Part shown: positions 2,243-24,769 of the stretch, piece by piece
How the letters are laid out: each line of letters begins with the position of its first letter
How positions within the stretch are numbered: position 1 is the stretch's first letter
Origin: Shackletoniella antarctica
GTDB taxonomy: Bacteria; Cyanobacteriota; Cyanobacteriia; Phormidesmidales; Phormidesmidaceae
Direction of reading: 5' to 3'
Length of the DNA: 58,071 bases
NCBI GenBank assembly: GCA_003241845.1
Contig: QBMN01000004.1
Coordinates: 1-58,071, forward strand
Position numbers and translations under genes: made by a program
Notes under the pieces: generated by a model
What the model was told of the DNA's origin: nothing
Database searches by the model: none
What the model saw: only the letters and a program-made list of their open reading frames with translations

Positions 2243-2312
2243 GGTGGGGTGGTGGGATGGTGGGGTTATGGCCGAGACCGCCAGGGGAGGGGTCGGTTTG
2301 TGGCCGAGACCA

Positions 2313-2428
2313 CCAGGGAATAGAATTCCCTGGCTCATAGTAAAAGTCCTCCAAAGAGGACTGGAAAAACGGGTTGAGTCCACTTTAGTGGACTTCCGCT
2401 TTGAGCCGTGGGTTTTAACCCTCGGCTC
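2313..2428. repeat. Four-hairpin dispersed repeat, copy A
   Basis: Four palindromes follow one another: CCAGGGAAT/ATTCCCTGG, AGTCCTC/GAGGACT, AGTCCACT/AGTGGACT and GAGCCG/CGGCTC (extended by GGGTT/AACCC). The same order, spacing and linker words (GGCTCATAG, GCTTTGAGCC) recur at 24379-24497, where the stems differ but still pair. Just downstream, at 2430-2490, a further segment repeats the motif GTGGGTTTTAACCC. The element fills most of the gap between the small dndD-coupled gene and the helicase gene, which are both on the minus strand, so it would be transcribed if they share a message. Confidence 0.85.
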
Positions 2429-2499
2429 ATCGGGGTATCGCGCCCACGACCCCCGTGGGTTTTAACCCATGGCTCACCGGGTATCGAGCACGACCATAA

Positions 2500-4626
2500 T
2501 CACAAATCTAACAAGTCATACCGTGCTTGCAGGGGATACAGAATTTTACGCGCTTCTCCAGCATTCAGCGCCAGATCGGCAAATTCTACAAATCGGGTCA
2601 GCTCGCCGCGCAGCACCCGCCGCTCTATCTGCCAATATTCCCCGCCCAGATCCGGCGGCACCACCAGCATGTCAAACAGTTCGGCCTGGTTTTTGCCCGG
2701 CGATCGCCGCAAAATGCGCCCCCGCCGCTGGATAAACTGGCGCGGGTTGCTGCTGCTGGCTAAAATTACAGCGGTTTGAATAGCCGGGATATCAACCCCT
2801 TCGTCTAGGCAGCGAATCGCGACCAGCCCTTTGAGATGCCCTTTCTCGAAGGCGTAGCGCAGGTCATCCCGCTCGCCTAGGGTGGTCTCGGCAATGTAGG
2901 GCTCGACCTTGTAGCCCAGGCGATAGTTGAGCAGTTCCGTCACGGCTTCGAGCTGGCGGCGGCTTTCATCGGTGGTTTCATCTTCTACCGAACCATCGCC
3001 ACAGTAAAACAACGTGTGGTCGGTGTTGAGCCGGTTGGCCATCAGCGTTCTCAGCTGGGTGAGCTTATTTTCGGCGGTGCAAATTAGCCTGGCCCGCTCA
3101 AACAACAGTCGCTCTAGGGCGGTGTTGTCGTCCCTGCCGCCAATGCCCATGGCTCGCCCAATGGCTACCGTCAGCTCGGCGTAGCGATCAACCTCCTCAG
3201 GGGTCAGCTCGATCAAGATCGGGGTGTAGGTATACTGCACCAGCGCCCCCGTCTGAATTGCGTCTCGCAGGGTAAATTCTGGCTCTAGCACTGGCCCAAA
3301 ATAGTCAAAGATGCGCTCTGTACCAGCCTCATCAAAGTGGCGCTCTGGGGTGGCCGACAGGGCCAGCCGCAGCTTGATCGCGTCCGGTAAGCAACTCGCC
3401 AGATTTTCGGCCCCCAGGTTGTGGGCTTCATCGCCAACGATCATCGCTAGCTGGGGCAGAAACGACAGCTGAGATTGCAAAGAGTCTTGCCGCAGGGTCG
3501 CGTTGGTAGTGATGATGGTGACAAAGGGCTGTCGTTCGCCCAGCACCGCTAGCAGCTGAGCCTGAAGTTCACTCTGCCAAGTCTGTGCCCGGTCAAAGGC
3601 CAGCACGGGGTCGAGGTTAAATTTGCGGCATTCCTCCGCCCACTGGGTGACCAGATGGCGATAGGGGCAGACAATCAGCAGGGCTTTCAAAGGTTTGTTT
3701 TGGGCCGCACACTTGCGGTAGAGTTCCGCTGCGATCGCCAGCGCCGTAATCGTCTTACCGCTGCCTGTAGCCATCTTCAGCGTGCCCCGCCCCTGATTGG
3801 CAAACCAGTTTGCGATCGCCTGGTGTTGGTAGTCTCTCAGGTTGAGCCAAAAGGGTGTGATCGGCACCCCCGGCCTCGGCACTTCCGGTAGTGGTGTATC
3901 TGGCTCGTAGCGCTCATCCATTGCAGAAACTCTAGGTTCCTGAACCGGCGGCTGGGGCGGGCATAGCTTTAGCAGCGATCGCGCCACCGCCTCAGGGAAG
4001 GCCATCACCTCTACATGCTTCGTCTGGTCGTTCCACAAATCCTGAAAGTTTTTTGCTTTTTGCAACGCCCGCTGGCTCACTCCCTCATCCCAAGAGCAAT
4101 AGACATCCAGACATTCAAAGTTATCGATCAATGCGCTGGCGCTTTCATTGGCCGACCCAGCAAAGGCGACCACATGACCATCCCCATCCACAAAGATGCC
4201 CAATTTTTCGTGGTAAATGCCCCGCTGTCGCAGCGTCTTGGGAATCGCCAGCTTAATTTCCAGCAGCCCCTTACTCAGCAACCACACCAATACCGCCAGC
4301 CGATCTTGAATTACCTGGGGTAGCTCAACCTCCAGATCCCGTAGCAAAGCCGCCTCGACCGCCTGCTCCCGGTTCTTTAGCCCCTGCTCAATCGCCTTCA
4401 CATCTTCCTCCGATAGCTGGGGCGACGTAATCAGACGCATTTGCCCCCCCGATCGCACAAATGCCGTCAGCCCTTGGGCCACACAAGCCATCGAAGAGCT
4501 AGAGAAATAGCCAACTGCCCGGTTATACACCGTGGCCTGCTCCAGGCACGGAATGTAGAAATCTTTGACGATGTTGCACTCGCTGCTGCGATACTCGTCC
4601 TGAATCGTTAGATCCTTCAGGCTCAC
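2500..4626 (-). CDS. PLD-domain DEAH helicase, phosphorothioation-linked restriction type
   Basis: This 708-residue protein has an N-terminal phospholipase-D-like nuclease domain, with H139-x-K141 followed by a GSANES motif (about residues 139-165). A superfamily 2 helicase follows: Walker A with K291 (MATGSGKT), DEAH at 399-402, SATPER, and a C-terminal motif VI (QFIQRRGRILRRSPG). The layout matches the DEAD/DEAH restriction protein family found beside dnd genes. The expected role is ATP-driven cleavage of unmodified DNA, by analogy with that family. It lies upstream of dndD on the same strand, separated by the four-hairpin repeat. The start (MSLKDLTIQDEY) is the first ATG of the ORF. A generic PLD-helicase of another restriction system is possible. 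Confidence 0.82.
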   Translation of the reverse strand: MSLKDLTIQDEYRSSECNIVKDFYIPCLEQATVYNRAVGYFSSSSMACVAQGLTAFVRSGGQMRLITSPQLSEEDVKAIEQGLKNREQAVEAALLRDLEVELPQVIQDRLAVLVWLLSKGLLEIKLAIPKTLRQRGIYHEKLGIFVDGDGHVVAFAGSANESASALIDNFECLDVYCSWDEGVSQRALQKAKNFQDLWNDQTKHVEVMAFPEAVARSLLKLCPPQPPVQEPRVSAMDERYEPDTPLPEVPRPGVPITPFWLNLRDYQHQAIANWFANQGRGTLKMATGSGKTITALAIAAELYRKCAAQNKPLKALLIVCPYRHLVTQWAEECRKFNLDPVLAFDRAQTWQSELQAQLLAVLGERQPFVTIITTNATLRQDSLQSQLSFLPQLAMIVGDEAHNLGAENLASCLPDAIKLRLALSATPERHFDEAGTERIFDYFGPVLEPEFTLRDAIQTGALVQYTYTPILIELTPEEVDRYAELTVAIGRAMGIGGRDDNTALERLLFERARLICTAENKLTQLRTLMANRLNTDHTLFYCGDGSVEDETTDESRRQLEAVTELLNYRLGYKVEPYIAETTLGERDDLRYAFEKGHLKGLVAIRCLDEGVDIPAIQTAVILASSSNPRQFIQRRGRILRRSPGKNQAELFDMLVVPPDLGGEYWQIERRVLRGELTRFVEFADLALNAGEARKILYPLQARYDLLDL

Positions 4627-24110: not shown

Positions 24111-24208
24111 TGAGCCGGTCGCTGTCGAGGAATGCCGCCAACCTAAGTTTGGATTAGATCCCTCTTTTATACGAAATCCGATTTGGTAAACCCCTATTCA
24201 TAGTCAGG

Positions 24209-24248
24209 AACCCTGTAGGGGCGTAGCATGCTACGCCCCTACAGGGTT
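24209..24248. repeat. 40-bp perfect palindrome
   Basis: AACCCTGTAGGGGCGTAGCA is followed immediately by its exact reverse complement. The GTAGGGGCG word is shared with the MITE at 27153-27256, so this is probably a rearranged or related repeat. Confidence 0.9.
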
Positions 24249-24378
24249 CGTCGGGTGCGTCATCGCTATGGGTGACACACCAAAGCTAACCCCGGCGGTG
24301 TGTTGTGGCGACAGCCCTGTCAAGGTCGCCAAACTATTCTCGAAACGCATGTAGGCTAAGGGACTCCGGCCAAAACCG

Positions 24379-24497
24379 CCAGGGAGTAAACTCCCTGGCT
24401 CATAGCAAAAGTCTGCTCAAGCAGACTGGGTAACTCGGCTCCCAATCCTCTTCAGAGGATTTCGGCTTTGAGCCTTGGACTTTGAGTCCAAGGCTCA
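24379..24497. repeat. Four-hairpin dispersed repeat, copy B
   Basis: This copy has the same order as 2313-2428: CCAGGGAGT/ACTCCCTGG, AGTCTGC/GCAGACT, AATCCTCT/AGAGGATT, and GAGCCTTGGACT/AGTCCAAGGCTC. The linkers GGCTCATAG and GGCTTTGAGCC are kept. Stem bases differ from copy A, but the changes are matched on both arms. Confidence 0.85.
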
Positions 24498-24769
24498 GCG
24501 GCCAATCCAAAGAATCGCCCCCTAAATCTGGCCCCACTTTGACAGGGCTGGGTGGGCACTGCCCACCATTTGGGAAACTATTTTTCAGAAGTGGCCTAAG
24601 TGGATAGCGTCTTTAGCGATCGCCCCTCATCCCCCATCGCCGCATTCGGCAGGCAGGAGCGCCGCCCCTGTTGGCAGGCGCGCTGGTAGTCGGCCCAGGC
24701 TCTCAGCTGGCGCTCGGGGCCGTAGCGATGCTTAAACTGCTCCCAGCAGACTTTTTCCAGGGAGAAGCG

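Follow-up and report, generated by a model that had tools for sequence, protein, structure and literature searches.

A four-hairpin DNA element of Shackletoniella antarctica and its association with Y1 transposase genes of subclass 1.2

Among described systems the closest are the "REPtrons", in which repetitive extragenic palindromic (REP) sequences and their paired forms (REPINs, REP doublets forming hairpins) accompany a TnpA-REP (RAYT) transposase; as portrayed in the parts of the two sources consulted (PMC6006769, PMC8266576), they share with the element reported here inverted hairpin units, dispersed copies, tandem arrays and one or a few flanked Y1 genes per genome. The transposases of IS200/IS605 (TnpA subclass 1.1) are of the same enzyme family as the one considered below, and these multi-copy insertion sequences carry a single subterminal hairpin at each end, in contrast to the two hairpins and conserved linker per side that we find; they also use a guide sequence that pairs with the cleavage site, and they insert without duplicating their target. 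Palindrome-associated transposable elements (PATEs) are gene-less derivatives of IS200/IS605. A further group, TnpA subclass 1.2, matches our enzyme in its Y---Q--HH motif, its presence in cyanobacteria and its one or few genes per genome; the consulted part of a 2018 survey describes it as generally lacking terminal IS200 structures (PMC6006769), whereas most loci examined here, among them loci of Chloroflexota, have two-hairpin modules. Our subject is a four-hairpin element of which two copies lie in contig QBMN01000004.1 of the cyanobacterium Shackletoniella antarctica (assembly GCA_003241845.1); the whole stretch analysed, 58,071 nucleotides, is referred to as the window.

The element also resembles the cyanobacterial GTAG-12, -15 and -16 repeats in being palindromic and dispersed; the latter are described, in the portion of the source used, as small palindromes of 20-40 bp with a GTAG tag (PMC3733652). 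Of the traits of a REPtron it has hairpin units that flank a gene and disperse as inverted pairs. Its tyrosine motif is Y---Q--HH, not the Y---NP of TnpA-REP/RAYT class 2, its units consist of two hairpins with a conserved linker, giving four hairpins per pair, and a GTAG, GTGG or CGTC tag directly before the outer hairpin was found in 0 of 28 aligned elements; since motif and tag differ, we do not file it as a REP/RAYT member. The open-licence papers searched included no text with any of six oligonucleotides of the element and none describing such modules for subclass 1.2. The observations to be accounted for are the four-hairpin architecture, its dispersal and covariation, the conserved linkers, the association with genes and the joint segregation of linker and transposase types. 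From these we conclude that the core of the element is probably a non-autonomous, REPIN-like single-stranded DNA partner of a subclass 1.2 Y1 HUH TnpA, one lineage of which was later wrapped by an element with terminal inverted repeats (TIRs).

Architecture and covariation of the element

An earlier note on the window, made from its letters alone, had reported four consecutive hairpins at two places and named stem differences between them that preserve pairing. Both are borne out: the hairpins are present and strong, folding far better (as RNA) than dinucleotide shuffles (z -7.13 for copy 1 and -8.12 for copy 2, with 0 of 200 shuffles equal), and the named paired changes are found in the sequence. 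The fourth stem of copy 1 contains one mismatch, and both copies are intergenic. The features concerned are these:

2302..2435, + strand: four-hairpin element, copy 1; covariance model match of 122.8 bits, copy 1 being itself a row of the model
2313-2333, 2345-2362, 2377-2394 and 2402-2429: hairpins H1, H2, H3 and H4 of copy 1
2334-2344 and 2395-2401: linkers of copy 1
24368..24503, + strand: four-hairpin element, copy 2; model match of 158.5 bits, copy 2 being itself a row of the model
24378-24399, 24410-24427, 24444-24461 and 24469-24497: hairpins H1, H2, H3 and H4 of copy 2
2453..2481, + strand: partial extra fourth hairpin (array remnant), 3' of copy 1; repeat family D8

The core, about 120-135 nt long, consists of two inverted two-hairpin modules, each with an outer hairpin, a linker GCT[C/A]A[T/A]AGC and an inner hairpin. 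In the left half a GGCTCATAGCAAA-like linker joins the outer to the inner hairpin, and the right half repeats this arrangement in inverted orientation, which is why the element model matches both strands at one place. Four consecutive hairpins at these spacings occur in 107 distinct cases in our locus set, itself enriched for such elements through retrieval, as against 0 in 905,829 base-shuffled bases.

A blastn search with copy 1 returned 45 matches, the query included, in the S. antarctica genome (4.71 Mb, 287 contigs; our G000), and matches in 13 of 57 relatives. The orthologue of copy 1 in relative G003 is two full copies in tandem, and that in G016 a copy cut within the third hairpin. From sampled loci of this genome 37 full-length cores were extracted, and all but copy 1 (36) carry the AGTCTGC / AATCCTCT stem types with scattered changes. 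Since every other core shares the stems of the copy 2 type, the compensatory differences between the two window copies are differences between subfamilies; they are real, but neither copy is typical of the other. A third subfamily, outside the 37 cores, occupies contig C163. Of the 37, 35 were aligned, an identical tandem copy and a core with a broken fourth hairpin being dropped. Even within the genome 10 pairs are changed on both sides (shuffle mean 2.2). Several elements (loci L025, L027, L038 and L313) have another repeat, with GGTGGGCANTGCCCACC, inserted at about their third hairpin. Among viral contigs the exact linker pattern occurs in 1 record.

The covariation extends across genomes. 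A 62-row alignment gathered by sequence similarity (35 of the genome's own copies, 26 loci of relatives and one C163 copy) shows two-sided changes in 28 of 38 pairs (shuffle mean 10.9) and in 109 cells (26.3), with 0 of 500 shuffles as high. The covariance model built from this alignment, R1, has hits in 58 of the 145 class genomes; as scoring was confined to the top 22 candidates of each genome, copy numbers are lower bounds. A second, 28-row MAFFT alignment joins the two window copies to 26 loci found with the model, 22 of which come from 22 genomes and represent 17 other genera; L083, L103 and L139 were left out of it although they match the model. Here 95.7% of cells are paired, 29 of 36 pairs and 188 cells are changed on both sides (45.8 when shuffled) as against 15 cells changed on one side, and the covariation score is 0.536 against 0.164 for shuffles, the best slid control giving 31 cells. 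The pairs comprise 947 Watson-Crick, 16 G-T and 43 others. Covariation is strong in each stem; the linkers, inverted from one half to the other, look conserved at the sequence level from genus to genus, and we claim no long-range pairing of linker with linker. Genome-wide copies exist and do covary strongly, the question on which the earlier note had made its proposal depend. Between genera the stems are rewritten with pairing kept, and the element offers an exceptionally clear example from nature of what is probably selection acting on a DNA fold, not on sequence. In integron attC sites, too, the single-stranded DNA fold is conserved and the sequence variable; enzyme and context differ from those of the present element.

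One alternative is that stems stay paired with no selection on the fold, one arm being recopied by palindrome repair or template switching after elements have been left behind. Almost pure Watson-Crick pairing and the rarity of one-sided relative to two-sided changes are what such correction would give, but correction alone is insufficient for linkers conserved across genera and inverted between halves or for the retention of four similarly spaced hairpins, and we think this explanation unlikely.

The elements extend well beyond the genus. A pattern for the module with linker type B (GGCTACACA-like), at one mismatch or fewer, is matched 1 to 60 times per genome in 19 of 20 named genomes, as against 0 in all 20 for the reversed pattern. 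Planktothrix rubescens has four-hairpin elements unaccompanied by the gene, as singletons and in tandem arrays, one array at 123-bp spacing.

Modules beside subclass 1.2 transposase genes

Seven PF01797 matches are found in the S. antarctica genome, and one of these genes, on contig C163, has five elements of that contig's subfamily around it. Its product has HUH and Y...Q..HH motifs and is IS200/IS605-like (NCBIfam assignment IS200/IS605; best solved relatives ISHp608 and related transposases, E ~3e-15); judged by its Y---Q--HH signature and its Y1_Tnp family, the motif is of the subclass 1.2 type. Five such proteins, used to scan named genomes, gave 173 loci. The 80 best were retained: these belong to cyanobacteria, Chloroflexota and a few others, and 76 of them have Y---Q--HH, the remaining 4 having RH instead of HH. 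In the class sample a subclass 1.2 gene (called at E < 1e-25, the next group lying near 1e-19) is present in 22 of 145 genomes, at one or a few genes per genome. Two pairs of loci are duplicates (L118=L396, L119=L135).

Two-hairpin modules accompany 108 of 157 gene flanks of the 80 subclass 1.2-like loci, compared with 2 of 144 distal stretches. Within 250 nt of the gene a module is present upstream in 58/78, downstream in 50/79, on both sides in 42/77 and on either side in 66/80 loci; at 900-1150 nt the corresponding distal figures are 2/71 and 0/73, and shuffled flanks give 2/390 and 3/395. The cut-off for calling a module had been lowered once, from 10 to 9.5. At the stricter value of 10 modules are found in 34/78 upstream and 31/79 downstream flanks (distal 2/71 and 0/73), and at one laxer than 9.5 in 63/78 and 56/79 (distal 6/71 and 6/73). 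Other Y1 genes differ: at non-HH loci, mostly of the subclass 1.1 type to which IS200/IS605 belongs, a module lies upstream in 0/41 and downstream in 4/41. For this control 54 loci were tried, 42 had a recognisable frame and one of these was of HH type (with no module); flanks were counted from the reading frame, not from the tblastn match. In the simplest arrangements a single four-hairpin element encloses the reading frame, with two hairpins on each side of it; examples are loci of Thermomicrobiales (L149), of Cyanosarcina (L139) and of several Nostoc.

The covariance model gives the same picture. R1 matches are present in 16 of 22 subclass 1.2 loci of the class sample and in all 12 loci with a QK..HH motif, compared with 0 of 51 other Y1 loci, and at several loci (L404, L405, L407) they lie on both sides of the gene. 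By genome, 20 of the 22 that bear the gene have R1 matches, compared with 38 of the 123 without it (Fisher P 1.2e-7). Linker and enzyme type also go together: QK genes have linker A in 14 cases and linker B in 1, non-QK genes have linker A in 0 and linker B in 33, and 53 have neither. Common descent may explain this co-segregation. At L171 and L209 the left module is tandemly repeated together with the beginning of the tnpA frame, and the 5' end of tnpA has thus been copied along with the module.

These results bear on the earlier note's proposal of a REP-like element moved by a Y1 transposase, to be checked by looking for an associated IS200/RAYT-type gene. Genome-wide copies, covariation in all stems and a Y1 gene found among the five C163 elements and beside elements in many other genomes support it in part; the RAYT (TnpA-REP) part falls, the enzyme being of subclass 1.2, and movement by the Y1 protein is suggested by association. 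A further qualification concerns copy 2, which is enclosed in a TIR unit belonging to the duplication-making kind. To our knowledge, Y1 enzymes make no target-site duplications.

The inverted-repeat wrapper

That unit is the following:

24312..24551, + strand: 240-bp unit carrying copy 2, with imperfect inverted-repeat ends CAGCCCTGTCAAGG...CCTTGACAGGGCTG at 24312-24328 and 24534-24550

Within the genus, numerous matches start at 24312 and stop at 24551 or one hairpin beyond. The ends of this wrapper exist in two versions, CAGCCCTGTCAAGG and CCCCTGTTAAGG, and the TIR pattern is found in 10 of 26 genus genomes. At least one wrapper end lies in the flanks of 33 of the 37 full cores, and both ends in 9 (0 of 740 shuffles). 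At 15 of 20 fetched units the borders are direct repeats some 12 bp long (score >=9), as against 10.5% of mismatched pairs; one of the 20 units is cut off by a contig end, and the control is inflated because many units share the same palindromic target. The wrapper is often inserted in a palindrome of the GGTGGGCNNTGCCCACC type (L296, L299, L300, L301, L303, L306, L307, L308), which suggests a palindromic target. From its TIRs and its ~12-bp target duplications we infer that the wrapper is a DDE-like miniature inverted-repeat transposable element (MITE). As most full cores have at least one wrapper end, the core in this genus is cargo of that element, and most copies in the genus have spread in this way.

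A search of the 26 genus genomes for a parent of the wrapper, with the end pattern at one mismatch or fewer, found none. One inward pair of ends lies 2.4 kb apart (on contig C236), each in its own unit and with no transposase read between; the other inward pairs are at most ~0.5 kb apart. Where the window has 446 bp around copy 2, relative G012 has 27 bp; several repeats occupy the region, so that there is no clean empty site. Upstream of copy 2, at 24164-24243, there is a separate repeat some 75 bp long, with 89-96% identity to matches in many genus genomes.

Should the whole element, then, be taken as a plain DDE-type MITE whose hairpins are mere interior with no link to Y1? The 240-bp units, their ends and their duplications speak for it. 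Wrapper and core nevertheless come apart in both directions. Units of 201 bp (L308) and 410 bp (L314) have the same ends and a direct repeat and no core, while no wrapper end lies within 150 nt of copy 1, of three other full cores, of the five C163 elements or of 21 of 22 elements of other genomes. Around copy 1 neither TIR nor direct repeat was found, and copy 1 is a member of a lineage that lacks the wrapper. With the core tied to Y1 genes elsewhere, the MITE accounts for spread in the genus and not for the core; as a full account it is rejected, and we consider it very unlikely.

Evidence weighed and proposed working

A structured RNA (a regulatory RNA or a terminator) with its fold under selection, the other possibility raised in the earlier note, would suit the strong conserved fold, the compensatory changes and the intergenic position of both copies, but is most improbable and is rejected as a full account, given G-T pairs in a mere 16 of 963 paired cells, model matches on both strands, dispersal in tens of copies and in tandem arrays, the tie to a transposase gene and an Rfam 15 scan of the window at gathering score in which a tRNA was the sole match. 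Structured RNAs are usually clearly richer in G-U pairs than this, and for that reason the selected fold is more likely to be one of DNA.

Several observations weigh against our conclusion that the core is a partner of the subclass 1.2 TnpA. On the side of the alignments, the loci of the 28-row alignment were picked with a model that rewards pairing. On the side of the gene, 6 of 22 gene loci are without an R1 match and 14 of 80 without a module under the hairpin rule; of the 16 matched loci 4 (L397, L399, L400, L408) are weak, at 13-25 bits, and 2 (L395, L396) had themselves supplied rows of the model; and YIDTQEEHH-type genes show no module (L105) and no model match (L415, L416). The 38 genomes with elements and no detected subclass 1.2 gene speak against the element strictly requiring a gene in its own genome, and G003, which is 86% complete and has many copies, shows in the scan two Y1 matches, neither with the HH motif. 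The co-segregation of linker and enzyme is weak as independent evidence, because joint inheritance of gene and module is possible and because the linker patterns were drawn up with the sequences already in view. As to movement, many copies took another route, as the 240-bp unit shows, and at copy 2's own unit no clear target duplication was found; one Planktothrix locus is occupied in 4 of 10 genomes and not in 6, but its flanks have diverged, and a clean empty site for a core without the wrapper was not obtained.

Binding, cleavage and mobilisation of the core by TnpA, which the association suggests, might proceed as follows. In a single-stranded state, for example on the lagging strand, the hairpins would fold, and TnpA would read hairpin shape together with the linker; as shape and linker would be what is read, the letters of the stems would be free to drift or to be corrected while they stay paired. 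A second step, seen at the level of the genus, is the capture of one core lineage by a TIR element and its spread thereafter as cargo.

The genes near the elements include several of defence and DNA modification. Copy 1 is flanked by one gene for a PbeC/DndD-like ATPase and one for a PbeA-like helicase (genes at 15-2069 and 2500-4626, both on the - strand). Of 104 subclass 1.2 loci, 23 (21 when the two duplicate pairs are set aside) have a DndD homologue next to the transposase, compared with 0 of 51 control loci, and in 9 of 9 chosen loci (L166, L182, L184, L187, L192, L400, L403, L160, L199) tnpA stands between dndC-like and dndD genes; a tenth protein checked, from the adjoining gene in G026, gave no match. 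The neighbour scan covered 56 of 183 test frames and 56 of 94 control frames, selected by us: the former also include members of type I methyltransferase (4) and Cas10d (3) families, and the latter yielded mainly Cas12f-type (TnpB-like) matches with single others. Individual subclass 1.2 genes adjoin type I restriction-modification genes (L404) and the Cas10d gene of a type I-D CRISPR system (L401). A term search of two dnd-system papers found no mention of such a transposase.

A bolder proposal, possible though on balance doubtful, is that subclass 1.2 Y1 HUH enzymes, hitherto with no known substrate, run structure-addressed replicators across phyla, in which inverted two-hairpin modules are recognised by shape and a short linker and the stem letters are free, and that their gene, placed repeatedly within DNA-modification and defence operons, chiefly between dndC and dndD, has perhaps been recruited for the processing of host single-stranded DNA.

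For the subclass 1.2 TnpA the core supplies a likely substrate, and with it testable biochemistry, and the REP/RAYT way of life would extend to another branch of Y1 enzymes and to Chloroflexota. One genome also serves as a warning that two movers can be layered, since in it a TIR wrapper encloses a core that is linked to Y1. With tens of copies per genome in many genomes and genera, the element offers material for comparing selection on a fold.
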